Origin: SAR324 cluster bacterium
Lineage (GTDB): Bacteria; SAR324; NAC60-12
Length of the DNA: 64,000 bases
Assembly: GCA_015231825.1 (NCBI GenBank)
Contig: JADGAV010000016.1
Location: 1,609-65,608 of the forward strand
Direction of reading: 5' to 3'
Position 1 is the stretch's first letter. Each line of letters starts with the position of its first letter. Below are positions 14,361 through 42,108 of this stretch, piece after piece. Under the pieces are notes generated by a model. That model was not told the DNA's origin and did not search any database. It saw only the letters and a program-made list of their open reading frames with translations. A program made the translations under genes and the position numbers.

Positions 14361-15346
14361 CTATTAGGACTCTTGATTAGTCCATATAAGATTTGGACAA
14401 AAGTTAGCAAGTAAAATTTTTTGTTACCTTGAAATGCTAATTGCTTGCAAGCCCTCTATATAAAAATAAGAATGAGAAAATTTTGCGAAAATAGAAGAAT
14501 CGAATAAGGAATGACAAGGGAAGTCAGAACCTTGGATATTTTGCTGAACACTCGACTGCATCCCCGAATGCGTTAAAGTACGGGATGATTGTCAGAACCG
14601 CTGCTTTATAGAAGACAAAAAGTTTATGAACAAATTCAGCACAGCTTTTCAGTTCTGATCAAATGTTCATTGAGTTCCTGAATTTGTTGTTTTTAGCGGT
14701 TTTTTATTCATTTGACATTGACCTGCAGGTATGTTTATTAGATATTTCAAAGCACGAACCGTCCTAACTTTAAACTTGATTTGAAAAGCTGTTCGCATCG
14801 TTATTATGCAGCAAATACGATAACCTCGTTCCTTCCTGTTTGCTTTTCTGAATTTGAGTTAGCCCTTTTTAGGGAAGAGTCTTTATCCAATGCATTTTTC
14901 GATTATGTTTTTCATTTTCTGAAGTTTCTCATTTTGAAAAACAGGCCAAGCACTTGAATTTTAAGCATAAATGATTATTTTTTATAAATTTTTGCATCAA
15001 ATGATTGTTCTCCATTCATCCCTATGGAATTCGCATTGGCAGGGAATCAAAGAAAACTTTATCCGGAAAAAGATCTGGTTCAATTTTTCCTGACTGCAGA
15101 GTCAGGATATTATTGAGGTGAAAAAGCAAATGAAAACTGATATGAGAAGAATTTCTTAGATCAAAATTTGATGAAAACTTTATTGTTGACATCCCAGAAA
15201 CAGGCTTGTATCGTCTCCCGTATCAGGTTTTTGATCTTGTAAAGAACTGATTTAAAGAAGTAAATTATGTATTTCCCTTCAATGAATTGAAAGAAAAGCT
15301 GAAGGGTGGTACCGACCAAGTCCCGTTAAAAGAAAGAAAAAACCAA

Positions 15347-17323
15347 ATGTCTGTATCAAATGCTCAGCCAGTCGGGATCAGGGAAAACAAATTGGATACA
15401 TTTCCAAAACTGCTGCTTGATAATGCCATTCATCTTGGTAAAAAAACCGCGATACGGGAAAAGTACCTCGGAATATGGCAGTCCTGGACCTGGAAAGAAA
15501 TGACCGATCAAATTCGCTCTCTGGCCCATGGATTAGCAGCAATAGGTTTCAAGCGTGGAGATAAGCTGGTTATCATCGGTGACAATCGGCCGCGCCTGTA
15601 TTGGGCCATGGCCGCGGTTCAATGTTTGGGCGGTGTACCGGTACCAGCCTACCAGGACTCGGCAGCGGAGGAATTCCAGTATTTGCTCGATCATGCTGAC
15701 GCCCGTTTTGTTCTCGCTGAAAATCAAGAACAAGTTGACAAGACTCTGGAAGTCAAAGATCGCTGCCCAAAACTTGAGGCGGTTATCTTTGACGAACCCC
15801 GCGGACTGCGTGATTACGAGCGGTCTCATCTTTATGATTACGACAACATTCAAGAGATGGGTCGCAAGTTTCAAGCAGAGAACCCCAACTTCCTTGATCA
15901 GGAAATTGCAAAGGGAAATGGGGAAGATATTGCGACAATTCTTTACACATCAGGAACGACGGGCAAACCCAAAGGTGTTGTGCTGAGTTACGATAACTTG
16001 CTGATTACTGCAAGAAATTCCATAAAGCGGGATAATCTCAAACAGGATGAGGAGATATTGGCCTACTTACCAATGGCCTGGGTTGGGGACAACATTTTTT
16101 CCTATGGACAGGCCTATGTGGCAGGTTTTTGTGTAAACTGTCCTGAAAACAGCGCAACCATTTTAGAAGATCTTCGCGAAATCGGCCCCACCTACTATTT
16201 TGCTCCACCTCGGGTATTCGAAAATATGCTGACCACCGTGATGATCCGAATGGAAGATGCCGGCTGGCTGAAACGAAAAATGTTTGATTATTTCATGGGA
16301 ATCGCTCGCAGGGCTGGAATAAATATTCTCGATCGGAAGGAAGTGCCAATTTCTGACCAAATTCTTTACGCAATAGGAAAAATTTTAGTGTATGGTCCTC
16401 TGAAAAACACGCTCGGTTTTTCACGCATCCGCCTTGCTTATACTGCAGGTGAAGCGATTGGCCCGGACATTTTTGATTTTTACCGATCCCTGGGAATCAA
16501 CATTAAACAGCTCTATGGACAAACCGAAGCAGCGGTATTTGTCACAATGCAGCCTGATGGGGAGGTGAAAGCAGATACGGTCGGCACTCCTGCACCGGAG
16601 GTTGAAATCAAAATTGCTGAAAACGGAGAAGTGCTTTATCGCGGACCCGGAGTTTTTCAGAGTTATTACAAAGATCCGAAGGCTACCGCCGAAACAAAAA
16701 CAGAAGACGGTTGGGTACTTACCGGTGATGCCGGTTTTTTCGCCGATGATGGGCATCTAAAGATTATCGATCGGGCCAAGGATGTTGGCAAGTTCAACAG
16801 CGGAGCCATATTTGCACCCAAATATCTTGAAAACAAGCTCAAGTTTTTTCCTCAAATTAAAGAAGCCGTCACATTCGGACATGAAAAAGACTTTAGTGTT
16901 GCTTTTATCAATATTGATCTGGAAGCCGTTGGCAGTTGGGCTGAAAGGAACAATATCCCCTACGCCAGCTATCAGGAGTTAGCAGGCCACAAACTGGTTT
17001 ATTCGATGATTCAGGAGTGTGTTGAGAAAGTCAACAGCGATTTGATTGCAGATGAAAAATTGTCGGGTTCACAAATAAGACGATTTTTGGTCCTGCACAA
17101 AGAACTCGATGCTGACGATGGGGAATTGACTCGCACCCGAAAAGTAAGAAGGCGCATCATTGCTGAGAAATATGGTGTATTGATCGATGCCCTTTATTCA
17201 GATAAAGATCGCTGTTTCATAGAAACAGAAGTCACCTTTGAAGATGGACAAAAAGGTTCCATCAGCGCAGATCTGCAGATCCGTGACGTAAAAACATTCT
17301 CTCCTCAAGCCTTGGCGAGTTGA
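15347..17323 (+). CDS. AMP-forming long-chain acyl-CoA synthetase
   Basis: 'ATILYTSGTTGKPKGVVLSYDNLL', 'QLYGQTEAAVFVTMQPDG', 'GWVLTGDAGFFADDGHLKIIDRAKD'; ORF opens at 15287, ATG at 15347 chosen. Confidence 0.92.
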   Translation: MSVSNAQPVGIRENKLDTFPKLLLDNAIHLGKKTAIREKYLGIWQSWTWKEMTDQIRSLAHGLAAIGFKRGDKLVIIGDNRPRLYWAMAAVQCLGGVPVPAYQDSAAEEFQYLLDHADARFVLAENQEQVDKTLEVKDRCPKLEAVIFDEPRGLRDYERSHLYDYDNIQEMGRKFQAENPNFLDQEIAKGNGEDIATILYTSGTTGKPKGVVLSYDNLLITARNSIKRDNLKQDEEILAYLPMAWVGDNIFSYGQAYVAGFCVNCPENSATILEDLREIGPTYYFAPPRVFENMLTTVMIRMEDAGWLKRKMFDYFMGIARRAGINILDRKEVPISDQILYAIGKILVYGPLKNTLGFSRIRLAYTAGEAIGPDIFDFYRSLGINIKQLYGQTEAAVFVTMQPDGEVKADTVGTPAPEVEIKIAENGEVLYRGPGVFQSYYKDPKATAETKTEDGWVLTGDAGFFADDGHLKIIDRAKDVGKFNSGAIFAPKYLENKLKFFPQIKEAVTFGHEKDFSVAFINIDLEAVGSWAERNNIPYASYQELAGHKLVYSMIQECVEKVNSDLIADEKLSGSQIRRFLVLHKELDADDGELTRTRKVRRRIIAEKYGVLIDALYSDKDRCFIETEVTFEDGQKGSISADLQIRDVKTFSPQALAS

Positions 17324-17350
17324 AGAACCGGAATAGAAAAATCACTGTTT

Positions 17351-18526
17351 ATGGACAAAAAAACGGTCAATAAAAGAATTAAATTTTATGATGACCTTGA
17401 GGTGATGGAAGTGGACTTTTCTGATCTCACCTTTACGGTCAATAAACACGTCGATGAGTTTTATGACGAAGTTGACCGACTCCTGGCGAGTTCTGACCGA
17501 CAGTGGTACTTTCTGGTGAACTACACCAATTGCAAAATCAAACCGGAAATTTGGAATCACTTTGCAGCCCGGGGAAAACAATCAAACACTTCGCACGGCC
17601 TCGGTTCCGTGCGCATTGGTACGACCGCAGAAATTCGTGAGACCATCCGTGAATATTCCAGAAAAGAAAATTTTCGTGCCAACCTTTATGAATCCCGCGA
17701 CGAGGCATTTTCAGCACTCAATACAATGCGCAGGCGTCGAAAAACATCTGGGTCTGAAGGTATAGAACCTTATCTCAGTGTTAAAAATATCCACCTGTCA
17801 TTCGGTGGTATTCGAGCAATCGGAGGGGTAGGCTTCGAGGTGCACCAGGGTGACATTTTTTCCATTATTGGCCCCAATGGCGCAGGTAAAACCTCGATGA
17901 TCAACGTCATCAGCGGATTTTACCGACCATCAGAAGGTCAAATTATTTTCAACGGCATCGACCGCACTCACTACCATCCAGCTGACGTCGCCAAACTTGG
18001 ATTCGCGCGGACTTTTCAAAACATCGCCCTGTTTAAAGGCATGACGACACTGGACAATATCATGACAGGTCGTTTGATCAAAATGAAGAGCAATTTCTTT
18101 CTGGAAGCCCTCTATTTCGGTCCGGCGAGACGACAGGAGATGGAAAACCGTGAATATGTGGAAAAAATTATTGATTTTCTGGAAATACAGTCCATTCGCA
18201 AAACTCCTGTCGGCCGCTTGCCGTATGGATTTCAAAAACGGGTAGAGTTGGCACGTGCACTGGCAATGGAACCCAAAGTGCTTCTCCTTGACGAGCCCAT
18301 GGCCGGAATGAACCTTGAAGAAAAAGAAGACATGGCTCGTTTCATTTTAGATGTGAGCGAGGAATGGGGGACAACCATCATGCTCATCGAACACGATATG
18401 GGAGTCGTTATGGATTTATCAACCATGGTGGTCGTGATGGATCATGGTGAAAAAATTGCGGAAGGCACACCCGACGACGTGCGTAAAGATCCGGTGGTGA
18501 TCCGGGCATACCTTGGTGAAGGCTAA
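17351..18526 (+). CDS. LivG-type ABC transporter ATPase with N-terminal SpoIIAA/STAS-like domain
   Basis: 391 aa; about 120-aa N-terminal extension, then 'GPNGAGKTSMINVISGFYRPSEG', 'PYGFQKRVELARALAMEPKVLLLDEPMAGMN'. Confidence 0.9.
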   Translation: MDKKTVNKRIKFYDDLEVMEVDFSDLTFTVNKHVDEFYDEVDRLLASSDRQWYFLVNYTNCKIKPEIWNHFAARGKQSNTSHGLGSVRIGTTAEIRETIREYSRKENFRANLYESRDEAFSALNTMRRRRKTSGSEGIEPYLSVKNIHLSFGGIRAIGGVGFEVHQGDIFSIIGPNGAGKTSMINVISGFYRPSEGQIIFNGIDRTHYHPADVAKLGFARTFQNIALFKGMTTLDNIMTGRLIKMKSNFFLEALYFGPARRQEMENREYVEKIIDFLEIQSIRKTPVGRLPYGFQKRVELARALAMEPKVLLLDEPMAGMNLEEKEDMARFILDVSEEWGTTIMLIEHDMGVVMDLSTMVVVMDHGEKIAEGTPDDVRKDPVVIRAYLGEG

Positions 18527-19745
18527 GTTTTGGAGTCAAAATACGATGTTTGATTTACTATTTTTTCTGGAAACACTTATTGGCGGTCTCCTCTCGGGCG
18601 TGATGTACTCCCTCGTAGCTCTCGGCTTTGTATTAATTTTCAAAGCATCCGGGGTATTTAATTTTGCCCAGGGGGCGATGGTATTGTTCGCAGCATTGAC
18701 ATTTGTCCTGATGCTGGAACTGGGAGGTGAATTCTGGGACTGGACCGGTTGGCTGGCGCTGCTCTTCGCTGCGGCATCGGGGGTATTGATTCTTTTAAAT
18801 CGTTATACTGATTATTTCAAACCCCAAATCATATCCAAACGCACGGCTTTGTTGTTTTCGCTTCTCACTGCACTGGTGCTGGTTCTGTTTTTCGACGGTG
18901 GACGCAACATGTGGAGGGCCGCATTCATATCCCTGATAATTTTTCTTGTTCTGACAGTTGGAGTTCGCAAACCGAAGTGGGCAGCCGCTGTTTTGCTGGG
19001 AGTGGCAGTCACTAGTTTTTTTGCAGGTGGTATCAATTTTTGGCGTTCTCTCGTTCTGACTCTTGTTGTGATGGTGATGTTGGCCATGGCAATTGAAAGG
19101 GTTGTATTGAGACATTTGGTCAACCAGGAGCCGATATTACTTTTTATGGCAACCATCGGTCTGAATTTTGTCCTTGAGGGAATTGCGCAGGGAGTCTGGG
19201 ATTCCGATGTGCACGGTCTGGATATCGGAATTGAAGATATGCCTTTTGATGTGTACGGAGTCTTTATCAGCAAGTTCGATATTTTTGCCGCAATATCCGC
19301 GGGATTGCTGGTCCTGGGAATTGGTGTGTTTTTTACAAAAACCCGTGTTGGTCGGGCATTGCGTGCTGTCGCTGACGATCACCAGGCTGCGATGGCTGTC
19401 GGGATTTCACTCAATGATATCTGGGCGATTGTTTGGTCCGCTTCCGGTATTGTGGCTCTCTTTGCGGGTTTGCTGTGGGGTTCAAAACTGGGGGTTCAAT
19501 TCAGTCTGGTGCTGCTGGCGTTCAAAGCACTCCCGGTGCTGATCCTCGGGGGTTTCACTTCAGTACCCGGTGCAATCATAGGCGGCTTGATCGTCGGTGC
19601 AACAGAGAAGGTCTTTGAAGTCTTTATTGGTATTGAATATCTGGGTGGAGGGACCGAGAGCTGGAGTCCATATATGTTGGCGATGATTTTTCTTTTGTTC
19701 CGGCCTCAGGGATTATTCGGAGAAAAAATAATCGAACGAGTCTAG
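18513..19745 (+). CDS. LivH-type ABC permease with enlarged TM region
   Basis: 410 aa; 'SGVMYSLVALGFVLIFKASGVFNFAQGAMV', 'FTSVPGAIIGGLIVGATE', 'LFRPQGLFGEK'. Confidence 0.92.
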   Translation: MVKAKFWSQNTMFDLLFFLETLIGGLLSGVMYSLVALGFVLIFKASGVFNFAQGAMVLFAALTFVLMLELGGEFWDWTGWLALLFAAASGVLILLNRYTDYFKPQIISKRTALLFSLLTALVLVLFFDGGRNMWRAAFISLIIFLVLTVGVRKPKWAAAVLLGVAVTSFFAGGINFWRSLVLTLVVMVMLAMAIERVVLRHLVNQEPILLFMATIGLNFVLEGIAQGVWDSDVHGLDIGIEDMPFDVYGVFISKFDIFAAISAGLLVLGIGVFFTKTRVGRALRAVADDHQAAMAVGISLNDIWAIVWSASGIVALFAGLLWGSKLGVQFSLVLLAFKALPVLILGGFTSVPGAIIGGLIVGATEKVFEVFIGIEYLGGGTESWSPYMLAMIFLLFRPQGLFGEKIIERV

Positions 19746-19791
19746 TAAGAATTTGCGTTTAGATAAAGATTGGTAGAGCAGTAAGGAAAGC

Positions 19792-20919
19792 ATGATTTAT
19801 AGAGAAACAGGCCAGTTTAAAACGACATACCCGGATGACCAGGCGATTTTTCCGATCCCTCAGGACCGATGGTTTCTTGGCGCAGGATTGCTGCTCGCGT
19901 TGGTCGTCGTCCCTTTGACAGCAAACCAATATTGGCTTGGCCCCATCTTTACCCAATTCCTGGTCTTTTCTCTGGCAGCGGTAGGATTAAACATATTAAC
20001 AGGGTACGCTGGGCAGGTATCTCTCGGTACAGGGGGCTTTATGGCAGTAGGGGCCTACATGTGCTACAACTTTGCCTTGAGGGTCCCGGAACTGCCTCTG
20101 TTCGTAGACTTCATTATCGGTGGCATTTTCGCGGCACTTGTGGGGGTTGTTTTCGGTCTCCCAAGTATGCGCATCAAGGGCTTTTATCTTGCTGTTGCAA
20201 CCTTGGCCGCCCAATTTTTCTTATTATGGGTGTTCGATCATGTCGGATGGTTCACCAACTATGATCCCGCCGGTGTTGCTTCTGCTCCATCTCGTACTCT
20301 ACTGGGTTCCTGGGCAACGGAAGGGGGTCCCCTTTCTTTTCTGGCGCCGATAAATATGATGGTTTCGGGGCCCGAAGCGACTCCAGAAACAAAATACATG
20401 ATAACGCTCGTCACCGTAATAGTGTTCGCAGTGCTGGCCAAAAACATGGTTCGCAGTTCCACGGGCAGAGCATGGATGGCAATCCGTGATATGGACATTG
20501 CTGCCGAGATCATTGGTATCAATCCCTTAAAGACAAAAATTTCCGCATTTGCCATCAGTTCCTTCTATTGCGGTGTGGCCGGTTCTCTTTACGTCTTCAC
20601 TTACGTCGGCAACGCCGATACTGAAGCATTTGATCTGGCACGTTCATTTCAGATTCTTTTTATGGTCATCATCGGAGGCTTAGGCAGCATCATGGGCTCT
20701 TTTTTGGGAGCCGCATTCATTGTCCTGCTGCCGGTTTTTTTAAACATCCTGGCGTCCACCCTTGGCGAGGGGACACTTCCCAGCGATACATTGGCCAATC
20801 TTGAACTGATCATTTTCGGCAGTTTTATAATCTTTTTTCTGATCATCGAACCACATGGTTTCGCCAGGCTTTGGCAGATCGGCAAAGAGAAACTGAGGAA
20901 ATGGCCATTTCCTTACTAG
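19792..20919 (+). CDS. LivM-type ABC permease
   Basis: 375 aa; 'AAVGLNILTGYAGQVSLGTGGFMAVGAY', 'GGLGSIMGSFLGAAFIVLLP'. Confidence 0.92.
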   Translation: MIYRETGQFKTTYPDDQAIFPIPQDRWFLGAGLLLALVVVPLTANQYWLGPIFTQFLVFSLAAVGLNILTGYAGQVSLGTGGFMAVGAYMCYNFALRVPELPLFVDFIIGGIFAALVGVVFGLPSMRIKGFYLAVATLAAQFFLLWVFDHVGWFTNYDPAGVASAPSRTLLGSWATEGGPLSFLAPINMMVSGPEATPETKYMITLVTVIVFAVLAKNMVRSSTGRAWMAIRDMDIAAEIIGINPLKTKISAFAISSFYCGVAGSLYVFTYVGNADTEAFDLARSFQILFMVIIGGLGSIMGSFLGAAFIVLLPVFLNILASTLGEGTLPSDTLANLELIIFGSFIIFFLIIEPHGFARLWQIGKEKLRKWPFPY

Positions 20920-21112
20920 AACATCTTCTATTATCTGACATCGGCCGGGTTTTGGGAATGTGCCTGGCAGTCAATCGTCTTTCAAGCACAAACATTCCCT
21001 GCAATTTTATCTGATATTGATTGTAAAAATTGGCGGAAATTTCTCTCCCAAGACATTTTCGGCAAAACTATCAGTATCTATTCCAAACGAGCACTAAAAG
21101 GAGGAATGAATC

Positions 21113-22456
21113 ATGAAAACAATAAAAAGATACTTTGGATCTGTCTTAACATTTCTTCTGCTTGTATTGCCCGTGGCGAGCGCCCAGGCGGTTGAGCAGT
21201 TTTTCCCAATGCTGATCTACCGAACCGGTCCGTATGCAGCTGGAGGTTCAGGCTTTGCAGGCGGTCAGGAAGATTATTATGAATTACTGAACACTCGGGA
21301 TGGCGGTGTTGGAGGAGTAAAACTGATTTGGGAAGAATGTGAAACAGCCTATAATTCTGATCGCGGAGTTGAGTGCTATGAACGTCTCAAGGGGAAAAAT
21401 GGAGGAGGAATCGTTGTTCAGCCGCTTTCGACCGGGATCACCTATCGACTGATCGAGCGTGCAACCAAAGATCAAATTCCGATCATGTCCATGGGTTACG
21501 GACGAACAGACGCGTCTGACGGCCGTGTGTTCCCCTATGTTTTTCCGATTGTCACCAACTACTGGAGCCAAAATACAGCCAAGATCAAGTATATTGGATC
21601 TAAAGTAGGAGGTATGGATAAGCTCAAAGGATTGAAGATTGCCAATCTCTATCATGAATCCAGTTACGGCAAGGAGACAATTCCCGTTATGGATCTTCAG
21701 GCTAAAAAATATGGATTCACTGTCAATCACTATCCGGTTCCGCATCCGGGTTTGGACCAAAAAGCTACCTGGCTTCAGATCGGTCGTCGCTTTAAGCCGG
21801 ATTGGGTGATTCTTCGAGGATGGGGAGTCATGAATCCTACGGCACTGAAAGAGGCGGCAAGAGTTGGTTTTCCCGCCAATAAAATCGTCGGCGTCTGGTG
21901 GAGTGGTGCAGAAGAAGATGTCATTCCTGCAGGAAAAGCCGCTGTTGGTTATGTGGCGGCCGGATTTCATCCCTCAGGAAATGATTTCCCGGTGATCCAG
22001 GAAATTCTGGATAAAGTACATGGTGCCGGCAAAGGAAACATCACCCCGCAAAGAGTAGGGACTATCTATTACAACCGTGGTTTGATCGGGGGAATTCTCA
22101 GTGTCGAAGCGATGCGGAACGCCCAGAAAAAGTTTGGTGTTCAAAGAGTCACCGGTGAACAAATGCGTTGGGGATTGGAAAATCTCAATATTACTGAAGC
22201 ACGCATCAAGGAATTGGGTGCGGAAGGGTTGATGTCACCCATAAAAATTTCATGCTTCGACCACGAAGGTGGTGGTAGTGTCAAATTTCAGGAATGGGAT
22301 GGTAAGCAATGGAAAGTCGTCACTGACTGGATTGAAACAGATCAATCCATCGTTCGACCGATGATTGAAGAATCTGCTGCAAAGTATGCCCAGGAAAAAG
22401 GAATCACTCCGCGTTCAGGTAAAGATTCGATGGGTTCTGACTGCAGCACGATGTAA
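21113..22456 (+). CDS. Liv-type ABC transporter substrate-binding protein
   Basis: 447 aa; signal peptide 'FLLLVLPVASAQA'; periplasmic binding fold 'GGVGGVKLIWEECETAYNSDRGVECYERL'. Confidence 0.88.
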   Translation: MKTIKRYFGSVLTFLLLVLPVASAQAVEQFFPMLIYRTGPYAAGGSGFAGGQEDYYELLNTRDGGVGGVKLIWEECETAYNSDRGVECYERLKGKNGGGIVVQPLSTGITYRLIERATKDQIPIMSMGYGRTDASDGRVFPYVFPIVTNYWSQNTAKIKYIGSKVGGMDKLKGLKIANLYHESSYGKETIPVMDLQAKKYGFTVNHYPVPHPGLDQKATWLQIGRRFKPDWVILRGWGVMNPTALKEAARVGFPANKIVGVWWSGAEEDVIPAGKAAVGYVAAGFHPSGNDFPVIQEILDKVHGAGKGNITPQRVGTIYYNRGLIGGILSVEAMRNAQKKFGVQRVTGEQMRWGLENLNITEARIKELGAEGLMSPIKISCFDHEGGGSVKFQEWDGKQWKVVTDWIETDQSIVRPMIEESAAKYAQEKGITPRSGKDSMGSDCSTM

Positions 22457-22478
22457 TCCATCCTGAAAGAGAAAATTC

Positions 22479-23303
22479 ATGGAACAGACTGCAAGTGAGA
22501 GTAATATCCTCCTAACAGTCAACAATATCGAAGTGATCTATGACCATGTGATTCTGGTCCTGAAGGGTGTTTCATTGGAAGTTCCCGAGGAGGGTATTGT
22601 TGCCCTCCTCGGCGCCAATGGGGCCGGTAAAACCACCACGCTCAAGGCAATTTCCAATTTGCTTCGGGCGGAACGTGGTGATGTGACCAAGGGTTCGATT
22701 GAATTTCGCGGAGACCGCGTCGACAAACTTTCCCCTTCCGAATTGGTTAAGCGTGGTGTGACGCAGGTGATGGAGGGCCGACATGTTTTTGAGCATCTGA
22801 CTGTTCAGGAAAATCTGCTGACCGGTGCTTATACGCGCACCGATGGTCGAAATGCCATCTCTCAAAGTCTTGAAATGGTCTACGGTTATTTTCCCCGACT
22901 TAAAGAACGCAGGAAAAGCCAGGCAGGGTATATCTCTGGTGGTGAGCAGCAAATGGTCGCTGTCGGGCGAGCACTAATGGCCAAGCCATCAGTGATTCTT
23001 TTGGATGAACCCTCGATGGGCCTTGCTCCATTGCTGGTTGAAGAGATCTTTGAAATTGTAAAACTACTCAATCAAAAAGAAAAAGTAACGATTCTCCTTG
23101 CAGAACAAAACACCATCATGGCCCTGAAATATGCAACTTACGGTTACATCATGGAGAATGGCCGTGTAGTGATGGACGGAGATGCCAAGGAACTGGCGAA
23201 TAATGAGGATGTCAAAGAGTTTTACCTTGGAATGAGCGGGGAAAATCGAAAGAGTTTTAAAAACGTTAAAAATTACCGCAGAAGAAAACGCTGGCTTTCC
23301 TGA
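22479..23303 (+). CDS. LivF-type ABC transporter ATPase
   Basis: 274 aa; 'LLGANGAGKTTTLKAISNLL', 'YISGGEQQMVAVGRALMAKPSVILLDEPSMGL'. Confidence 0.93.
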   Translation: MEQTASESNILLTVNNIEVIYDHVILVLKGVSLEVPEEGIVALLGANGAGKTTTLKAISNLLRAERGDVTKGSIEFRGDRVDKLSPSELVKRGVTQVMEGRHVFEHLTVQENLLTGAYTRTDGRNAISQSLEMVYGYFPRLKERRKSQAGYISGGEQQMVAVGRALMAKPSVILLDEPSMGLAPLLVEEIFEIVKLLNQKEKVTILLAEQNTIMALKYATYGYIMENGRVVMDGDAKELANNEDVKEFYLGMSGENRKSFKNVKNYRRRKRWLS

Positions 23304-23561
23304 ATCCGGTGTCGACACCAAAGTTTTTAATCGGTTTCAGCTTGGCCTCTTCGAACAAAATAAAAATTGACAAAACGGCAGGAGCACTGTAGAAATTTTT
23401 TCGATTGCCCCTGTGGATTAAGATTTGTTGATTTTTTAGTCACCCGAAAAGAATTGAGTGGCAACAAAATCAAAGCCACTTCTCTCTTTTGAATAAGTTC
23501 AAAAAGGTCAATCAAATTATAAAACCGAGCTTTAATTGTTTGGTGTATCCGTTGACGCTGC

Positions 23562-23751
23562 GAATTGCTGATCAGTGAGTCGTTCCTGAACTCCAGGAAC
23601 CACGATAACGCAATTCATAAAGGCCGCCTTGCTCGAAGCAGGGTGGATGCTGCGAATTGGAAAATTGGTCAATCCCTCCTCCTAAGGAGGACCTTCCAAT
23701 TCTGCTATTGATTTAAATTTTTTCAAATCAATAGCTCCGGTTCATAAAGGT
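23562..23751. other. Structured intergenic region: two GCTGCGAATTG...TTCATAAAGG modules with nested stem-loops, upstream of the ectoine cluster
   Basis: Module 1: GAATTGC 23562-23568 / GCAATTC 23610-23616 enclosing GTTCCTG 23582-23588 / CAGGAAC 23594-23600. Module 2: GAATTGGAA 23654-23662 / TTCCAATTC 23694-23702 enclosing GGTC/GACC and CTCCT/AGGAG; then GCTATTGATTT 23704-23714 / AAATCAATAGC 23725-23735. Confidence 0.7.
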
Positions 23752-24006
23752 CAACATCTGTATGATGAATTGTTGTATAGATGGAGATCTTGTGGATTTT
23801 TGAGCTCCCGTATTAAAATCCTATCCATTTCCTTTCAGGTTCACTGCCAAGCACTGATCAAAGATCTGTTTTTTGCGGATAGTTCTGAGATATTCAAAAT
23901 GCCTTTTTTTGAAAATCTCTCAGTCGCCGCTCAAAACCTATGGCAAAATCTGACCAGGGACCTGTATTCATCAAAAAATTTGAAAATCGAAACAAAAAAT
24001 TGAATT

Positions 24007-25377
24007 ATGACTGATATTAAAGAACTTGAAGCTTGGGATCGGCAGGCATTTTTTCACCCTTCAACGCACCTGGCAAGTTTTGCTCGAGGAAATGTTCCCA
24101 ACCGCGTGATCACCGGTGGGGAAGGGGTCTACATCCGAGATCTGGAGGGCAATAAACTCCTAGACGCATTTGCCGGTCTGTATTGCGTCAACGTCGGGTA
24201 CGGCCGTAAACAGGTGATAGATGCTATTTCTGAGCAAGCAAAGAAACTTGCTTATTACCACGCCTATGTGGGCCACGGAACAGAGGCGTCCATTACACTT
24301 TCTCATATGATCCTGGAACGTGCACCTGCGCACATGTCCAAAGTGTATTTCGGCCTCTCAGGCTCTGACGCCAATGAGACCAATATTAAAATTGTTTGGT
24401 ATTTCAACAACGTCCTGGGACGTCCTCAAAAAAAGAAAATCATTTCGCGGTGGCGTGGCTATCATGGATCGGGTCTGATGACAGGTTCCTTGACCGGGCT
24501 TGAACTGTTTCACAATCAATTTGATCTCCCCCTCCCTCAGGTCATCCACACAGAAGCCCCCTATTATTTCCGGCGCAAAGATGACGCGATGAGTGAAGAA
24601 CAATTCTCTGAATATTGTGCTTCAGAACTCGAAAAATTAATTGAAAGTGAAGGACCTGAAACAATTGCTGCGTTCATTGGCGAACCGGTTCTTGGGACCG
24701 GTGGTCTCGTACCTCCCCCCAAAGGCTATTGGCGATCCATCCAAGCCGTGTTGAAAAAATACGACATCCTTCTCATTGCCGACGAAGTGGTCACCGGTTT
24801 CGGCCGGCTTGGATCCATGTTCGGTTCCACTCATTACGGGATTGAACCCGATATCATCACTATTGCCAAGGGTCTGACCTCCGCCTACGCGCCCCTTTCC
24901 GGTTCAATTATTTCGGAAAAGGTCTGGAAAGTCCTGGAAGAAGGAACCGACAAACTGGGCGCCATCGGACATGGTTGGACTTATTCGGCACACCCCATCG
25001 GAGCAGCTGCTGGAGTCGCAAATCTCAAAGTTATCGACGAACTCAATCTTGTTGCGAATGCTGCCGAAATCGGCGGTTATTTTAACCAAAAAATGAGAGA
25101 TACACTGGGTGCTCATGATCATGTCGGTGAAGTGCGGGGAGAAGGCCTCATGTGCGGAATCGAATTTGTTGAAAACAAAAATGGACGAAAATTATACGAC
25201 CCACCCGGCAAAGTCTCAGGGCAAATTGCTGCTTCACTGCTCAAACGGGGTGTAATCAGCCGGGCGATGCCGCAAGGTGATATTCTGGGTTTTGCTCCAC
25301 CGTTATGCTTATCCCGAGAGGAGGCCGATACAATCATCAGTTCTACCGTGAGCACGGTCGAAGAAGTACTGAGTTAG
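24007..25377 (+). CDS. doeD: Class III aminotransferase (DoeD-like, diaminobutyrate/omega-amino acid)
   Basis: 456 aa; 'LLIADEVVTGFGRLGSMFGS', 'TIAKGLTSAYAPL'; context with ectoine genes. Confidence 0.85.
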   Translation: MTDIKELEAWDRQAFFHPSTHLASFARGNVPNRVITGGEGVYIRDLEGNKLLDAFAGLYCVNVGYGRKQVIDAISEQAKKLAYYHAYVGHGTEASITLSHMILERAPAHMSKVYFGLSGSDANETNIKIVWYFNNVLGRPQKKKIISRWRGYHGSGLMTGSLTGLELFHNQFDLPLPQVIHTEAPYYFRRKDDAMSEEQFSEYCASELEKLIESEGPETIAAFIGEPVLGTGGLVPPPKGYWRSIQAVLKKYDILLIADEVVTGFGRLGSMFGSTHYGIEPDIITIAKGLTSAYAPLSGSIISEKVWKVLEEGTDKLGAIGHGWTYSAHPIGAAAGVANLKVIDELNLVANAAEIGGYFNQKMRDTLGAHDHVGEVRGEGLMCGIEFVENKNGRKLYDPPGKVSGQIAASLLKRGVISRAMPQGDILGFAPPLCLSREEADTIISSTVSTVEEVLS

Positions 25378-25644
25378 TAAATCATCCGGTTGCCGCCCGG
25401 GCAGTTGAAAGATATATGACCTGATCGTGTTGGGAAGCAGAGGCCTGAGCGATACAGAGAAGTTTTTTTGGGAAGTGTCTCCCTCAAAGAAACCAGTCTC
25501 GCTCAATGCCCAGTACCGATTGTTTAGGCACTTTCCAGATGGCAAGGTTGGGGCCTGACCCTGCCCGGCTGGCGTAAAATTTTAGCGTTTTTGATGTTTC
25601 TATTGTATAAATTTTCATTCAAACAAACTTTTTAGGGACAGACT

Positions 25645-26646
25645 GTGAGCACAAATCCGATTTCTGCGACAATTGATTTTGAAAAAGATGGTATTCATCA
25701 TGGTTTTTTAAAGGTTCCATACTCCAGTAATGAATCGGCCTGGGGATCAATTATGATCCCATTGACCGTACTGAAGAATGGAGAGGGTCCCAGCGCCCTG
25801 ATCACTGGTGCCAATCACGGTGACGAGTATGAAGGGCCGATTGCTATTTTTGACTTTGCCCAATCTGCCAAATTGAGCGAGATCCGGGGACGAGTGATTC
25901 TCATTCCTGCTATGAATTTTCCGGCGTTCCAAGCCGGCAACCGTGTTTCACCCATTGATTCTCTCAACATGAATCGTGTTTTTCCGGGTGAACCGCGAGG
26001 TACTGTCACACAGATCATTGCAAATTACTTTTCGCAAACTTTGCTGCCCATGTCCGACTGGGTATTAGACATTCATTCCGGCGGTAAAACCCTTGAGTTC
26101 GTTCCATTTGCTGCATGTCATCGATTGCCTAAAAAAGAATTGGAAATACGCTGTGAAGAAGGCATGAAAGCCTTTGGAGCCCCTTACCAGTTGAAGCTCT
26201 TAGAGATTGATGCGAATGGAATGTATGACACACAGGCCGAATCTATGGAGCGGGTGTTTGTTACCACCGAACTGGGGGGTCGGGGAACAACAACCCCTCA
26301 TACAGTCGAGATCGCCAAACGCGGTCTAAAAAACTTTTTAATTCACGCCAATATCCTGACAGGAGAGCTTACTCCTTCGCCAACACCACCCGTTGTGCTG
26401 GACATGCCTGACGATCGTTCTTTTCTATTTTCTGAACACGTTGGGATACTTGAGCCCTTTGCTGCCCTAGGAGAAATTGTAAACAAAGGTGATTTACTGG
26501 TCCGCATTTACAGCATGGAACGAACCGGAATTCCACCTTATGAATACCATGCACCGCGCGATGGAATGGTGATTTCTCGACATGCTCCTTCAGTGGTTAG
26601 AATGGGAGATTGCCTCAACGTCATTGCCGAAGTCGTAGAATCTTAA
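25645..26646 (+). CDS. doeB: N-acetyl-diaminobutyrate deacetylase (EutE/DoeB; succinylglutamate desuccinylase/aspartoacylase family)
   Basis: 333 aa; 'ITGANHGDEYEGPIAIFDFA', 'LDIHSGGKTLEFVPFAACH', 'TELGGRGTTTPHTV'; cluster context. Confidence 0.88.
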   Translation: MSTNPISATIDFEKDGIHHGFLKVPYSSNESAWGSIMIPLTVLKNGEGPSALITGANHGDEYEGPIAIFDFAQSAKLSEIRGRVILIPAMNFPAFQAGNRVSPIDSLNMNRVFPGEPRGTVTQIIANYFSQTLLPMSDWVLDIHSGGKTLEFVPFAACHRLPKKELEIRCEEGMKAFGAPYQLKLLEIDANGMYDTQAESMERVFVTTELGGRGTTTPHTVEIAKRGLKNFLIHANILTGELTPSPTPPVVLDMPDDRSFLFSEHVGILEPFAALGEIVNKGDLLVRIYSMERTGIPPYEYHAPRDGMVISRHAPSVVRMGDCLNVIAEVVES

Positions 26647-26670
26647 ACTTTTCCGACTTTAGGAGAAAAA

Positions 26671-27450
26671 ATGCCATCAGTCTTTTCATCAGAACAAAAA
26701 GTTGAATTTGACAGCCCTGAATCCCTAAAACGCTTAGGGTTAATTGCCTTGGCAACAGATCTCACCAGTGAACGTGATTTTGCCCGCATGTTTCCTTTGG
26801 ATCAAGTAGGAATATTTGCGACACGAGTTGCCTACCAAAATCCAACTACTCCGGAAAACCTCCGTAAAATGGGGCCCCGTTTGAGTGCTGCCGCTGAACT
26901 GATTTTACCCGGCGAATCGCTTAACGCAATATGTTACAGCTGCACGGCGGCATCTTTTGTCATTGGAGACAGGGAAGTGGAAGAATCGATTCATGCTGCC
27001 CGACCGGGTATTCCCGTGGTCACGCCAACAAAGTCTGCGCGGCTCGCATTTTCCGCCCTTGGAGTTCAGCGCATAGCGGTACTGACGCCCTATCTCCCGG
27101 AAACCAGTGAGCCTCTGTTTGAGTTTTTTAGCAGATATGGATTTGAGATCACACGAATGGAGTGCTTTGGTCTTGAAGACGATCGTGAGATGGCGCGTGT
27201 CAGTATTTCAAGTATCGTGGACGCAGCTTGCCGTATCGACAGCCCCGAAACAGAGGCACTTTTTGTTTCATGCACCGCATTGCCGGCAGTTTGGGCCGTT
27301 GAGGAAATCGAACAGCGTATAGGAAAGCCCGTGGTAAGCTCCAATCAGGCAAGTGCCTGGGTCATGATGCACCATGCTGGTATTTCAAGCCTTGATGGAA
27401 ACTACGGGAAGCTCTTTGAAATGGGGATTCCAGAAAATTGGAGGGACTAA
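26671..27450 (+). CDS. eutA: Ectoine utilisation protein EutA (Asp/Glu racemase/arylmalonate decarboxylase superfamily)
   Basis: 259 aa; 'CYSCTAASFVIGD' and 'FVSCTALPAV'; cluster context. Confidence 0.87.
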   Translation: MPSVFSSEQKVEFDSPESLKRLGLIALATDLTSERDFARMFPLDQVGIFATRVAYQNPTTPENLRKMGPRLSAAAELILPGESLNAICYSCTAASFVIGDREVEESIHAARPGIPVVTPTKSARLAFSALGVQRIAVLTPYLPETSEPLFEFFSRYGFEITRMECFGLEDDREMARVSISSIVDAACRIDSPETEALFVSCTALPAVWAVEEIEQRIGKPVVSSNQASAWVMMHHAGISSLDGNYGKLFEMGIPENWRD

Positions 27451-27454
27451 CTGA

Positions 27455-28450
27455 ATGAATGAAACTTGGCCTGTTAATCTGAGTGATATAGAAAAAGCCC
27501 GCGAGACCATCAAAAATGTAATACGGACAACCATGGTTAACCCGTCGGCATTTTTGACTGAAATGAGCTCTGAACCAACTTTTCTGAAACTGGAACATCA
27601 GCAAGTGACAGGAAGCTTCAAATTACGGGGATCCAGCAATGCGGTCATGAGGCTCAGCAAAGAACAAAAGTCACGGGGTGTCGTTGGTGTTTCTACCGGG
27701 AATCATGGGCGGGGACTGGCTTACGCTGCGCGCCAAAATGGAGTACATTGTATCATATGCATGTCAAATTTAGTGCCGAAAAATAAAATTGCAGGCATTG
27801 AGGCGCAAGGAGCAGAGGTAAGAATCATCGGGAGTTCACAGGATGATGCTCAGATCGAAGTGGATCGCCTTGTTTCTGAAGAGGGAATGACCATGATTCC
27901 TCCTTTTGACCACCCCCATATCATCTCCGGACAGGGTACATTGGGATTGGAGCTGCTGGAGCAGCTGCCTGATATGAAAAACGTTTTGGTCCCTCTTTCC
28001 GGTGGAGGTTTGATCGTTGGGATGGCGCTTGCCTTGAAGGCGAAAAAGCCTGATATCCGGGTGATTGGAGTCTCTATGGAAAGAGGAGCCGCCATGTATG
28101 AATGCCTTAGAGCCGGAAAACCGATTGAAGTCAAAGAACTGCCGACTCTTGCCGATTCGCTGGGAGGCGGAATTGGTTTGGAAAACCAGTACACGTTCAA
28201 AATGGCAAAAGAATTGGTCGACGAAATCGTACTGGTGAGTGAAACAGAAATTGCAGAGGCAATCCGTCATATCTACTGGCAGGAACAGCAAATTGTCGAA
28301 GGATCGGGTTCGGTTGGCGTGGCAGCCCTGTTAGCCAACAAAGTGAAACTTTCAGGAATGACAGTGGCGCTGCTCAGCGGAGGGAATATCGATATGAATC
28401 TCCATCATCGTCTCATTTCAGGTGAAAATGTAAATTTAGAGGAGGAGTAG
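27455..28450 (+). CDS. eutB: Hydroxyectoine utilisation dehydratase EutB (PLP, threonine dehydratase-like)
   Basis: 331 aa; 'LEHQQVTGSFKLRGSSNAV', 'VGVSTGNHGRGLAYAAR', 'PLSGGGLIVGMALALK'. Confidence 0.88.
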   Translation: MNETWPVNLSDIEKARETIKNVIRTTMVNPSAFLTEMSSEPTFLKLEHQQVTGSFKLRGSSNAVMRLSKEQKSRGVVGVSTGNHGRGLAYAARQNGVHCIICMSNLVPKNKIAGIEAQGAEVRIIGSSQDDAQIEVDRLVSEEGMTMIPPFDHPHIISGQGTLGLELLEQLPDMKNVLVPLSGGGLIVGMALALKAKKPDIRVIGVSMERGAAMYECLRAGKPIEVKELPTLADSLGGGIGLENQYTFKMAKELVDEIVLVSETEIAEAIRHIYWQEQQIVEGSGSVGVAALLANKVKLSGMTVALLSGGNIDMNLHHRLISGENVNLEEE

Positions 28451-28457
28451 AGAAAGT

Positions 28458-29450
28458 ATGCCAACAATCAAAATACTCACAGAAACAGAACTCAGAAAAA
28501 TTGTAAAATTAGATCTGGATGCAGTGGACTGTATTGAATCCGCATTCAGAAAACTGGCAGAAGGAAGCGTCGTGATGCCTCCTATCCTCTCGATGGCAAT
28601 CGAGGAGCATCATGGCGAAGTTGATGTGAAAACCGCCTATGTGCCAGGAATCGAAAATTTTGCCATCAAGATTTCGCCTGGCTTTTTCAACAATCCAAAA
28701 ATTGGTCTTCCCAGTACTTCTGGACTGATGGTGCTGTTTTCTGTCCGTACCGGTATGTTGGAAGCCTTGCTGCTCGACAATGGCTACCTTACCGATGTCC
28801 GTACTGCTGCTGCCGGAGCGGTCGCTGCAAATCATCTTTCCCGTAAAGAGTCCGAATCTGCCTGCATCGTCGGCGCTGGCAACCAGGCTCGCCTGCAGCT
28901 GCAGGCACTTTGCCTGGTCCGGCCCATTCAAAAAGCGACTGTATGGTCACCTGAAGAAGATGAGGCAAAGGAAACAGCCAAAGAATTAACAGAACGCCTG
29001 GGAATTCCGGTGCGAGCGTCGCTTGACATTGCAGCGATTGTCAGTGAAGCCGATATTGTGGTGACCACTACTCCGTCCACAAACCCATTGGTCTATGCTG
29101 AATGGCTGCGACCTGGGCAGCATATCACTTCGATGGGATCGGACCAGCCTAACAAAAATGAGTTGGAACCCGCCTGCTTGAAACGTGCTGACATTTACAT
29201 TGCAGATCGCATCTCGCAAACTTCTGTTCTCGGCGAACTGCACCACGCGATTCTTTCAGGTACAATTGAGGCAACTGAAGAATTCCCTGAACTGGGTGAA
29301 ATTGTCGCCAAAAAAAAGCAGGGCCGCATCAACAGCGAACAAATTACTATTTGTGATCTGACCGGCACAGGAGTCCAGGATACTGCAATTGCCACTTTCG
29401 CCAAGCAACGTGCAGAAATCGATGGCACCGGGAACAATTTTGTCAACTGA
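28458..29450 (+). CDS. eutC: Ectoine utilisation protein EutC (ornithine cyclodeaminase family)
   Basis: 330 aa; 'TDVRTAAAGAVAANHLSRKESESACIVGAGNQARLQLQAL', 'TTTPSTNPLV'. Confidence 0.88.
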   Translation: MPTIKILTETELRKIVKLDLDAVDCIESAFRKLAEGSVVMPPILSMAIEEHHGEVDVKTAYVPGIENFAIKISPGFFNNPKIGLPSTSGLMVLFSVRTGMLEALLLDNGYLTDVRTAAAGAVAANHLSRKESESACIVGAGNQARLQLQALCLVRPIQKATVWSPEEDEAKETAKELTERLGIPVRASLDIAAIVSEADIVVTTTPSTNPLVYAEWLRPGQHITSMGSDQPNKNELEPACLKRADIYIADRISQTSVLGELHHAILSGTIEATEEFPELGEIVAKKKQGRINSEQITICDLTGTGVQDTAIATFAKQRAEIDGTGNNFVN

Positions 29451-29461
29451 AAACGGATTCT

Positions 29462-30649
29462 ATGAAAACACCAACACTTTTTTTCTCATTGCCCGAATAT
29501 CGGGAACGTATCGAAAAGACCCGTCAAGCGATGGTCGCCAGTGAGCTGGATTTGATCATTGTTTCTGATCCTTCCAATATGAATTGGCTGACAGGTTATA
29601 ACGGCTGGTCTTTTTATGTTCATCAATGCGTAATACTGACGCTGGATGGTGAGCCTCTGTGGTACGGACGGGGCCAGGATACCAACGGAGCTAAAAGAAC
29701 CTGCTTCATGAGTGAAGAGCATTTGATCGGTTATGCAGATCATTTCGTGCAGTCTTCGCAACGACATCCAATGGACTATCTCGCAGAAATTTTTAAGCAG
29801 CGAGCCTGGGACAAGCTGCGGATTGGCGTGGAAATGGACAATTACTGGTTTTCTGCTGCGGCACTGGCCTCACTGCAGAATCATCTGCCTCATTCATCAT
29901 GGGGTGATGCAACCGGACTGGTCAATTGGCAGAGGGCTGTAAAATCGACTCAGGAGCTTGAATACATGCGCGTTGCTGCACGAAGAGTTGAATTGATGCA
30001 CAAACGAATTTTTGAAAAAGTGGAACCCGGCATTCGCAAGTGCGATTTGGTTGCCGAAATCTATGATGCCGCGCTTCGATTCGATGAAGCGAGCCAAACT
30101 GGTGGCGACTATCCCGCTATCGTTCCTCTGTTGCCTTCCGGTGAAGATGCATCAGCTCCGCACCTCACCTGGGATGACCAGCCGATGCAGGTTGGAGAAG
30201 GCACTTTTTTTGAAATTGCCGGGGTGTATCGTCGCTATCATTGTCCACTTTCCCGAACGGTATTTCTGGGCAAGCCAAGCCAAACTTTTATTGATGCCGA
30301 AAAAGCTGTGCTGGAAGGAATGGAAGCCGGATTGCTGGTCGCTAAAGCGGGCAATTTGTGCGAAGATATCGCCCTTGCATTTTTCAAAGTCCTCGAAAAA
30401 TACGGGATCGTAAAGGACAGCCGTACAGGTTATCCAATCGGCGTATCATTTCCTCCAGACTGGGGGGAAAGGACCATGTCATTGAGGCCCGGTGACAAAA
30501 CTGTTTTGCAGAAAAACATGACCTTTCATTTTATGACGGGATTGTGGATGGAGGACTGGGGATTCGAGATTACAGAAAGTATCATTATCGGAGAAAATGG
30601 GCCCGCTTGTCTTGCCAATGTACCCCGAAAATTATTCGTCAAACAATAA
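29462..30649 (+). CDS. doeA: Ectoine hydrolase EutD/DoeA (M24 peptidase family)
   Basis: 395 aa; creatinase/M24 layout 'DPSNMNWLTGYNGWSFYVHQCVIL', 'GIRKCDLVAEIYDAAL', 'FPPDWGERTMSLRPGD'; cluster context. Confidence 0.88.
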   Translation: MKTPTLFFSLPEYRERIEKTRQAMVASELDLIIVSDPSNMNWLTGYNGWSFYVHQCVILTLDGEPLWYGRGQDTNGAKRTCFMSEEHLIGYADHFVQSSQRHPMDYLAEIFKQRAWDKLRIGVEMDNYWFSAAALASLQNHLPHSSWGDATGLVNWQRAVKSTQELEYMRVAARRVELMHKRIFEKVEPGIRKCDLVAEIYDAALRFDEASQTGGDYPAIVPLLPSGEDASAPHLTWDDQPMQVGEGTFFEIAGVYRRYHCPLSRTVFLGKPSQTFIDAEKAVLEGMEAGLLVAKAGNLCEDIALAFFKVLEKYGIVKDSRTGYPIGVSFPPDWGERTMSLRPGDKTVLQKNMTFHFMTGLWMEDWGFEITESIIIGENGPACLANVPRKLFVKQ

Positions 30650-38743: not shown

Positions 38744-39487
38744 CTAGACAAGCTTCTCTTTGAAGCCGGTCTCATCGCCGTTGCCTCCTAAATATGCTTT
38801 TTGAACTGCTGGATCATCGACTAATATTGATGCCAAATCTTCTTTGATGATTCGGCTATTTTCCAGAAGATAGGCACGGTCGGCAATAGCAAGGCTTTGT
38901 TTTGCATTTTGTTCAACGAGCAAAATGCCGAGGCCGGCTTCACGCACCTTCATTAAATTTTGAAAAACCTCTTTGCACAGCAATGGAGAAAGCCCAAGAG
39001 AAGGTTCATCCAGCATGAGAATGTATGGAGACGACATGATTGCCCTTCCTATCGCTACCATTTGCTGCTCGCCACCACTCATCGTTCGGACAATTTGTCC
39101 TTTTCGTTCAGCAAGTTTCGGGAAGAGCTTCAGGACTCGTTTCAAGTTTTCCGACTGCTTTTTTCGTGCTCTCAGTGGATTTGCCCCCAAAGCCAGATTC
39201 TCCTTCACTGTTAAATCTGAAAATATTCCCCGTCCCTCGGGAACAAAAGCAATTCCAGCTTCAACAATTTCATGGGGGGGAAGGTGAGAAATATCGTTTC
39301 CTTCAATTGAAACGAAACCTCCCCTGGCATAGGGAGTAATGCCCGCAATGGCACGTAAAAAGGTGCTCTTACCCGCACCATTGGCACCAAGAATGACGAC
39401 GATTTCTCCCTGAGATACAGTAATGGAGAGATCTTCTGCTGCACGATGGCGTCCATAAAAAACTGATAGATTTTTTATCTCAAGCAC
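38744..39487 (-). CDS. LivF-type ABC transporter ATPase
   Basis: 247 aa; 'ILGANGAGKSTFLRAIAGI', 'TMSGGEQQMVAIGRAIMSSPYILMLDEPSLGLSPLL'. Confidence 0.93.
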   Translation of the reverse strand: MLEIKNLSVFYGRHRAAEDLSITVSQGEIVVILGANGAGKSTFLRAIAGITPYARGGFVSIEGNDISHLPPHEIVEAGIAFVPEGRGIFSDLTVKENLALGANPLRARKKQSENLKRVLKLFPKLAERKGQIVRTMSGGEQQMVAIGRAIMSSPYILMLDEPSLGLSPLLCKEVFQNLMKVREAGLGILLVEQNAKQSLAIADRAYLLENSRIIKEDLASILVDDPAVQKAYLGGNGDETGFKEKLV

Positions 39488-40223
39488 CTGAATCTCCTAA
39501 ATAGGCACGAATTACTTCCGCATCTGCCAAAACTTCGCTGGGGGTGCCTTCCGCTATTTTCATCCCGCTATTCATTACGACGCACCGATCGCACAAACTG
39601 CGAATCGCATCCATAACGTGCTCCACAATGATGATTGTTCGTCCTTCCTTTCTCAGTTCCTTGATCAGCGAAATTCCAATTTCCAGTTCCGTAAGATTCA
39701 GTCCAGCAAGCCATTCATCCAGAAGCAATATTTTGGGATCAGATGCGAGAGCACGAGCCAGTTCAAGTCTTTTTTGATCAATATAGGTCAGCGCATCCAC
39801 GGCTGTGTTTTCCATTTCTGCAAGACCTACTCGTTTTAACAAAGTCCTTGAGTATTCTTCCAAATCACTTCCCCAACGCCGACTGAAACCGAAGGCGCCA
39901 CCTGCTGCAACATTTTCCAGAACCGACAAAGTGGGCAGCATCCGAACAAGTTGGTAGGTCCGTGCTACTCCCTTCCTTGCGATGAGGTGAGAAGAACTTC
40001 CCGAAATATCTTCACCGTTCAGGTAGATTCGGCCAGAGCTTAATTTCGAGACTCCGGAAATCATATTCATCATGGTCGTTTTCCCCGATCCGTTTGGCCC
40101 AATCAAACCAAGTACCTCATGCTCGGCCAGGTCAAATGACAGTTTGGAAACAGCAACAAGGCCACCAAAATTTTTAACGGCATCCCGGATCCTTAAAATG
40201 TTTTTTCTAGTTGAACTGCTCAC
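39480..40223 (-). CDS. LivG-type ABC transporter ATPase
   Basis: 'IGPNGSGKTTMMNMISG', 'LDEWLAGLNLTELE'; GTG start at 40223 preferred over ORF start at 40271, which overlaps livM more. Confidence 0.9.
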   Translation of the reverse strand: MSSSTRKNILRIRDAVKNFGGLVAVSKLSFDLAEHEVLGLIGPNGSGKTTMMNMISGVSKLSSGRIYLNGEDISGSSSHLIARKGVARTYQLVRMLPTLSVLENVAAGGAFGFSRRWGSDLEEYSRTLLKRVGLAEMENTAVDALTYIDQKRLELARALASDPKILLLDEWLAGLNLTELEIGISLIKELRKEGRTIIIVEHVMDAIRSLCDRCVVMNSGMKIAEGTPSEVLADAEVIRAYLGDSGA

Positions 40224-41148
40224 GATTTCCTGAAATCCAGTTACTATAAATTTTTTCAACCAAACCAACAATACCGTTCGGGATTAAATAAACAATCAAG
40301 AGAAAAGAAATACCCAGCAAAAGAGTGGTTTGATTAGGGAAAAAAGTTGAGATCACGTCCCACAGCAAAGTGAAAGGGATCACTCCTAAAAGAGGTCCCC
40401 ACAGTCGGTGAGTCCCCCCCAGTAGCGCCATAATAACCACTTGAAAAGAAATCATGGGACTGAAAGCAATGCCCGGTTCCACATAGGTCCAGCGAGGTGA
40501 AAGCAATGCTCCTGTGACTGAAGCAATAGACCCGGAAACAATAAACAATACTATTTTCGCCCGGGCGGTATTGATGCCGCAATGTGCTGCGACTATTTCA
40601 TCGTTTCCTATGATTCTCAGTGCGAAACCAAGTCGAGATCGACCAATCCACCAGCCGAGACCGAAAACAAGCATGGCAAGAGCGAGCAATTCCCAAAAAA
40701 TGATGGATTCGGTAATATCGGTAAGAACGTAAAGGCCGCTGCTGGTTCCCATCGTCGTCTGAACCCAGGTGAAGATCTGGCGGATGAATTCAGCGAGACC
40801 AAGGGTGAATATTACAAAATAGACTCCAGACAATCGAAGCGTCGCCAGACCAATCACTGCCGCCAGGATAGCGCCAATAATTCCTGCCAGGAAAACGAGA
40901 AATGGAAAGGGTAAAAGCTCCAGACCACCCGCAACCGTATACATTCCAATTCCGAAAAATGCTGCTGTAGCAAGTGAAATGTAATGGGTTGGTCCCGAAA
41001 AGAGCGTCCAGGAAGTTGCCAGTACAGTATACATGACAACAGAAATGCTGATTGACAGCCAGTATCCTGTATCCACGAGTGGAATGAGAGCCGCACTGGC
41101 AAATATTAAAAAAACCGGAATAATGCTGCGTTTTTCCCGTTTGGTCAA
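40207..41148 (-). CDS. LivM-type ABC permease
   Basis: 313 aa multi-TM; 'GGTHRLWGPLLGVIPFTLL'; position in Liv operon. Confidence 0.9.
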   Translation of the reverse strand: MTKREKRSIIPVFLIFASAALIPLVDTGYWLSISISVVMYTVLATSWTLFSGPTHYISLATAAFFGIGMYTVAGGLELLPFPFLVFLAGIIGAILAAVIGLATLRLSGVYFVIFTLGLAEFIRQIFTWVQTTMGTSSGLYVLTDITESIIFWELLALAMLVFGLGWWIGRSRLGFALRIIGNDEIVAAHCGINTARAKIVLFIVSGSIASVTGALLSPRWTYVEPGIAFSPMISFQVVIMALLGGTHRLWGPLLGVIPFTLLWDVISTFFPNQTTLLLGISFLLIVYLIPNGIVGLVEKIYSNWISGNREQFN

Positions 41149-42011: not shown

Positions 42012-42108
42012 GATCGAAAGTTAGGCGAATAAAAGAATTTCGGTGCTGAAAGGGGAAGTTCTGCACCGAATTCAAAGTAGACTGCAATCTTGTCAGGCTA
42101 ATGACAAT

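Follow-up and report, generated by a model that had tools for sequence, protein, structure and literature searches.

A single-copy, two-unit structured block between liv-type transporter and ectoine catabolic genes of a SAR324 cluster bacterium, and its possible role as a cis-acting RNA

Genomic context of the structured block

Within the window analysed here (the whole stretch of 64,000 nt), a gene set for a liv-type ABC transporter is followed on the same strand by a cluster that, judged by its sequence matches, is one of ectoine catabolism (doeD, doeB, eutA, eutB, eutC and doeA). The two are separated by a non-coding gap of 703 nt between livF and doeD, in which every ORF is shorter than 90 aa and in the middle of which sits a two-unit structured block, ending approximately 250 nt 5′ of doeD (Table 1). 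The original prediction had placed such an element upstream of an ectoine cluster; the position between livF and that cluster stands, with the refinement that the cluster is catabolic by NCBIfam cut-offs. No intrinsic terminator is present in the gap, there being no GC-rich stem with a T-run, and the sole candidate between 23200 and 24100 lies within doeD. Likewise, no promoter excess was found on the plus strand of the gap. The suggestion of a 3′ UTR or terminator region of livF thus fails as regards an intrinsic terminator, for want of a T-run, but a non-terminating intercistronic structure is possible, and the arrangement, in which no intrinsic terminator separates the two same-strand gene sets, is compatible with an intercistronic structure that stabilises mRNA.

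Table 1. Features of the structured block and its neighbourhood (window coordinates; pair probabilities and z-scores are from predicted folds)
Feature	Position	Strand	Remarks
liv-type ABC transporter set	15287-23303	+	doe cluster on same strand, 3′ of set
livF-like ABC transporter ATPase	22479-23303	+	gene upstream of structured block
Near-copy of the end of unit 2	23497-23512	+	GTTCAAAAAGGTCAA vs GTTCATAAAGGTCAA, 93 %; contains GTCAAT able to pair with GTTGAC 23551-23556
Whole two-unit block, 205 bases	23551-23755	+	predicted four-way junction if folded alone; z -6.6 over 23550-23755
Helix A, 5′ strand GTTGAC	23551-23556	+	pair probability 0.99 in isolated block, ~0 with flanks; GTCAAT 23507-23512 competes
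Helix A, 3′ strand GTCAAC	23750-23755	+	
Unit 1: GCTGC, helix M1 around inner hairpin, ATAAAGG	23557-23623	+	alone z -3.3
Helix M1, GAATTGC/GCAATTC	23562-23568/23610-23616	+	pair probability 0.99-1.0, all contexts
Linker hairpin B, 9 bp, CCGCCTTGC/GCAGGGTGG, joins units	23624-23646	+	pair probability 0.99-1.0; z -4.1
Unit 2: GCTGC, M2 or M2alt, two inner hairpins, ATAAAGG	23649-23750	+	alone z -4.9
Helix M2, GAATTGGA/TCCGGTTC	23654-23661/23736-23743	+	pair probability 0.66 in isolated block
Helix M2alt, GAATTGGAA/TTCCAATTC	23654-23662/23694-23702	+	pair probability 0.32 isolated; 0.97-0.98 in 300- and 500-nt contexts
11-bp perfect hairpin, GCTATTGATTT...AAATCAATAGC	23704-23735 (arms 23704-23714/23725-23735)	+	
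Downstream 12-bp hairpin with wobble pairs	23755-23783	+	edge of structured zone; z -2.1, weak
doeD-like aminotransferase (PRK07482)	24007-25377	+	opens ectoine catabolic cluster; no Shine-Dalgarno sequence
doeB, eutA, eutB, eutC, doeA	25645-30649	+	NCBIfam equivalog matches over curated cut-offs
Starts of these genes	DoeB 25645; EutA 26671; EutB 27455; EutC 28458; DoeA 29462	+	

Architecture of the two units

The two units share their borders, in line with the original prediction of two stretches with a common start and end: both begin with GCTGCGAATTG and both finish with TTCATAAAGG. The 64-kb window contains just two exact copies of GCTGCGAATTG, at 23557 and at 23649, and TTCATAAAGG is found at 23614 and 23741, with one extra copy within livG on the minus strand. 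A longer pair of repeats, GTTGACGCTGCGAATTG and GTGGATGCTGCGAATTG, is identical at 15 of 17 positions. The best direct repeat was equalled in 13 of 150 shuffled sequences and the second best in none of the 150; by themselves, the direct repeats are weaker than the structural signal, and not overwhelming.

Parts common to both units are located at the junction, with the unshared parts found in the arms. The joining strands of the predicted four-way junction read GCTGC, ATAAAGG, (AT)GCTGC and ATAAAGG, a pseudo-symmetric arrangement closed by GTTGAC/GTCAAC. Helix M2 uses the shared end of unit 2 as M1 does in unit 1, and encloses two hairpins; M2alt, the closure of unit 2 that was first proposed, makes no use of the shared end TTCATAAAGG. 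Stems opened by GAATTG with different complementary partners (GAATTGC/GCAATTC and GAATTGGAA/TTCCAATTC) are both present as originally described, as is the 11-bp perfect stem, and the limits first given for the element, 23562–23751, proved too narrow, given that 23551–23556 pairs with 23750–23755 and that hairpins run to approximately 23810. The argument from compensating differences between the copies survives in part: pairing is indeed kept, but the case is thin, as GAATTG/CAATTC is the same in both units, leaving a single informative swap (C-G/G-C). M1 is better compared with M2 (GAATTGGA/TCCGGTTC), which reveals one compensatory and two one-sided changes, all of them preserving pairing, and such differences would mildly favour selection.

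Unit 2 also harbours TAAGGAGG (23683–23690), the sole perfect Shine–Dalgarno sequence on either strand of the window, which is one arm of a hairpin whose other arm is CCTCCT; it is not followed at the right distance by a start codon (ATG, GTG or TTG).

Stability of the predicted fold

Folding of 23550–23755 gave a predicted energy of -78.6 kcal/mol, compared with a mean of -49.6 kcal/mol for shuffled sequences, and none of 200 shuffles was as stable. Of the 852 sliding windows spanning the 64 kb, the three most structured start at 23551, 23626 and 23701, and the stretch 23551–23850 is the most structured of the entire window, which confirms the structured intergenic region of the original prediction. 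Among 615 non-coding windows drawn from approximately 460 kb of the same genome, a single place scored more strongly, this being a cluster of REP-type palindromes built of GTGTCCCC...GGGGACA. The dense GTGTCCCCTAA...TTGGGGGACATG palindromic repeats at L209:10051–10425 of the same genome (contig C76:30051–30425) fold with a z of approximately -12, have no Rfam match and adjoin, on the upstream side, a reading frame resembling a response regulator. The minus strand of the block is also strongly structured (z -5.2, vs -6.6 on the plus strand), and this asymmetry in the modelled folds mildly favours a plus-strand RNA. The GC content of the block is 45 %, compared with 36 % in the flanking intergenic DNA.

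The global arrangement of the helices is sensitive to the context in which they are folded. In the isolated block, M2 is preferred over M2alt by 0.4 kcal/mol, whilst in 300–500 nt of natural sequence the symmetric arrangement has a predicted energy 5–10 kcal/mol worse than that of an alternative that joins GTTGAC to the upstream GTCAAT and closes unit 2 locally through M2alt. The upstream GTCAAT hairpin has a probability of 0.86–0.89 in the 300- and 500-nt contexts and of 0.02 in the whole intergenic region; in this fold of all 703 nt, both the outer helix and the upstream hairpin are unfavoured, and M2 and M2alt are approximately equal. M1 and linker hairpin B are stable in every context folded. 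Due to the energetic advantage of the alternative with natural flanks, both it and the four-way junction are to be taken as predictions only, and the global fold adopted would depend on the transcript start.

Search for homologues

The core is absent elsewhere in the 5.8-Mb genome that carries the block, such that the notion of a structured repeat, if taken to mean a dispersed element, does not hold. A BLAST analysis of the element against this genome and 57 relatives returned short chance matches only, and pattern pairs in the relatives gave a match count no higher than that of a reversed control. Covariance models were built for the junction (R1) and for a single unit (R2). In the block's own genome, the sole additional match of R1 was the antisense of the same locus, and in the 57 relatives its matches reached approximately 20 bits or less, all without the core. 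Covariance searches found nothing with the core in the 51 genomes searched of the phylum (that of G041) and were empty over 291 genomes of another phylum, negatives that are limited by the strict filters applied when more than 40 genomes are searched and by long arms, which can hide copies. R2 recovered unit 1 in addition to a 5′ portion of unit 2, with nothing else convincing; the true end of unit 2 is missed because its long arm defeats the model.

An exact three-part pattern produced 51 stretches across 84,980 species, none of which pairs properly (as assessed by helix, linker hairpin and covariance score), meaning that these are chance occurrences; a Shewanella series amongst the pattern matches represents a single conserved sequence that lacks the helix. 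In viral contigs the exact pattern gave 57 stretches, for which a check of helix and linker hairpin found no real example, and no counterpart of the element was seen in plasmids, phages or E. coli. Comparison with Rfam 15 yielded no match in the window at the gathering threshold, and raising E to as much as 10 gave chance-level matches far below gathering scores.

Good homologues of doeD (57–68 % identity) are present in nine genomes of the family. Conservation of the element was not seen amongst these relatives, as the motif and any comparable or notable structure are absent from the 800 nt (approximately 510 in one) 5′ of doeD in all nine; gene order there differs too, with no livF homologue directly adjoining doeD. 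In one relative (L066), an AsnC/Lrp-type, DoeX-like regulator is encoded upstream of doeD (870–1352), and similar sequence can be seen upstream of doeD in several others, as judged by eye. A homologue of this regulator was not detectable in the block's own genome, in a search that had no positive control there. The published regulators of ectoine catabolism are the proteins EnuR, AsnC/DoeX and NtrYX, and a review describes protein regulators of this pathway with no mention of riboswitches (PMC5924519). The lack of a detectable AsnC-type regulator makes its replacement by an RNA conceivable, yet does not in itself count as evidence for such a replacement.

Discussion

The two-unit block is a real and striking feature of a single locus, and in our models might control the adjacent genes. 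The reading that we prefer, to which we assign a probability of a little under 0.4, is that of an RNA structure specific to the lineage and acting in cis, situated in the intercistronic or leader region between liv and doe, on the plus strand. The block would have arisen by local duplication, with junction and pairing retained as the arms diverged; it would be transcribed on the plus strand, and the RNA structure would determine how much doe mRNA is present in relation to liv mRNA, most simply by blocking 3′–5′ decay or by guiding processing. It may also act as a switch, with the four-way junction as one state and, as the other, the fold in which GTTGAC is held by the upstream GTCAAT and unit 2 is folded locally. 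This cis-acting reading is favoured by the strength of the fold, at the top of 852 windows, with M1 and the linker hairpin stable everywhere; by shared parts at the junction and unshared parts in the arms, with helix differences that keep pairing; by a non-coding gap between same-strand genes with no intrinsic terminator; by the better folding of the plus strand; and by the fact that the AsnC/Lrp-type regulator of L066 is undetected in this genome. It is weakened because a homologue was found nowhere searched, so that conservation cannot support function; because the symmetric fold loses by 5–10 kcal/mol with natural flanks; because the block stops approximately 250 nt short of doeD with no evident expression platform; and because the minus strand is structured too, as would be expected of palindrome-rich DNA.

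Nearly as likely, if itself tentative, is that the block is a relic palindromic element, i.e. hairpin DNA left over from a sequence that was mobile or had been duplicated locally, and without a function in regulation. Such an origin would suit the structure of both strands, the presence of a GC-richer island within AT-rich intergenic DNA, the 6-bp inverted repeat GTTGAC/GTCAAC that bounds the block, the existence of a palindromic repeat cluster elsewhere in the same genome, and the lack of conservation in relatives. It sits less easily, however, with a single genomic copy and no evident target-site duplication, with shared parts that are confined to helix junctions instead of spanning the whole repeat, and with sequence changes that preserve pairing. 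REP and MITE repeats have palindrome-rich intergenic DNA in common with the block, but dispersed elements of this kind require multiple genome copies, whereas the block is single copy with only a 6-bp terminal inverted repeat; the terminal signatures of integron attC sites and MITEs are also absent.

It seems unlikely that the block is a riboswitch-like aptamer, tandem and pseudo-symmetric and belonging to a class not yet described, that senses salt or a metabolite related to ectoine and controls the doe genes. The layout of conserved junction and variable arms in both units (a four-way junction with two GCTGC/ATAAAGG cores), the bistability by which GTTGAC and GAATTGGA each have alternative partners, and the position 5′ of a catabolic operon would all agree with it; against this, there is no second example amongst the 51 exact-core matches, covariance models are empty in the phylum and in the 291 genomes of another, and no Rfam match exists. 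Furthermore, neither of the usual riboswitch platforms is present, as the gap has no terminator and doeD no Shine–Dalgarno sequence to be hidden. On these grounds, the riboswitch or attenuator originally put forward is unsupported. A T-box leader was rejected, since the T-box sequence AGGGUGGNACCGCG is missing (a partial AGGGUGGA at 23640–23647 is followed by UGCUGCG) and no Rfam T-box match was obtained. It is similarly doubtful that the gap holds a free-standing small RNA gene, or a pair of sRNA genes, acting in trans: a compact structured block in a non-coding gap would fit this, but there is neither promoter excess nor plus-strand terminator in the gap, nor any conservation. That a new, very rare pseudo-symmetric tandem regulatory RNA, with two GCUGC/AUAAAGG cores, has replaced AsnC-type control of ectoine catabolism we regard as highly improbable.

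With regard to known systems, intercistronic mRNA-stabilising hairpins include the malE–malF REP and those of the puf operon. The block resembles these in placing strong hairpins between same-strand genes with no terminator T-run, but differs in that it is not dispersed, is far larger, comprises two related units and is known here as a prediction. Tandem or pseudo-symmetric riboswitches are exemplified by the NiCo four-way junction and the tandem glycine riboswitch; the predicted four-way junction of the block, whose arms vary and whose two joining strands are alike, is comparable, although the block has neither an Rfam match nor a second example, and this fold is not the minimum with natural flanks. 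The Na+-I riboswitch (DUF1646 motif) is partly linked to osmolyte genes and is described as having two substructures, P1 and P2, each of extended pairing (PMC9337991). It was considered for its osmolyte link and rejected, as no Rfam match was obtained at E up to 10 and the layout differs. EnuR, AsnC/DoeX and NtrYX target the same pathway as that encoded beside the block, but are proteins.

If functional, the block would, as far as we know, be the first reported case of RNA-level control of ectoine catabolism, there being none of which we are aware, and would show that a regulatory RNA may be strong and symmetric yet limited to a single lineage, where comparative searches do not see it. If a relic, it serves as a caution against calling a riboswitch from nothing more than a striking fold with a duplicated border.

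Beyond the block itself, the LivG-like ATPase (17351–18526) possesses an additional N-terminal region of approximately 140 residues ahead of its ABC domain, and the doeD–doeB gap (25378–25644) measures 267 bp in an operon that is tight elsewhere. A second ABC transporter set of the branched-chain-amino-acid type is encoded past the doe cluster, on the minus strand (38744–43398).
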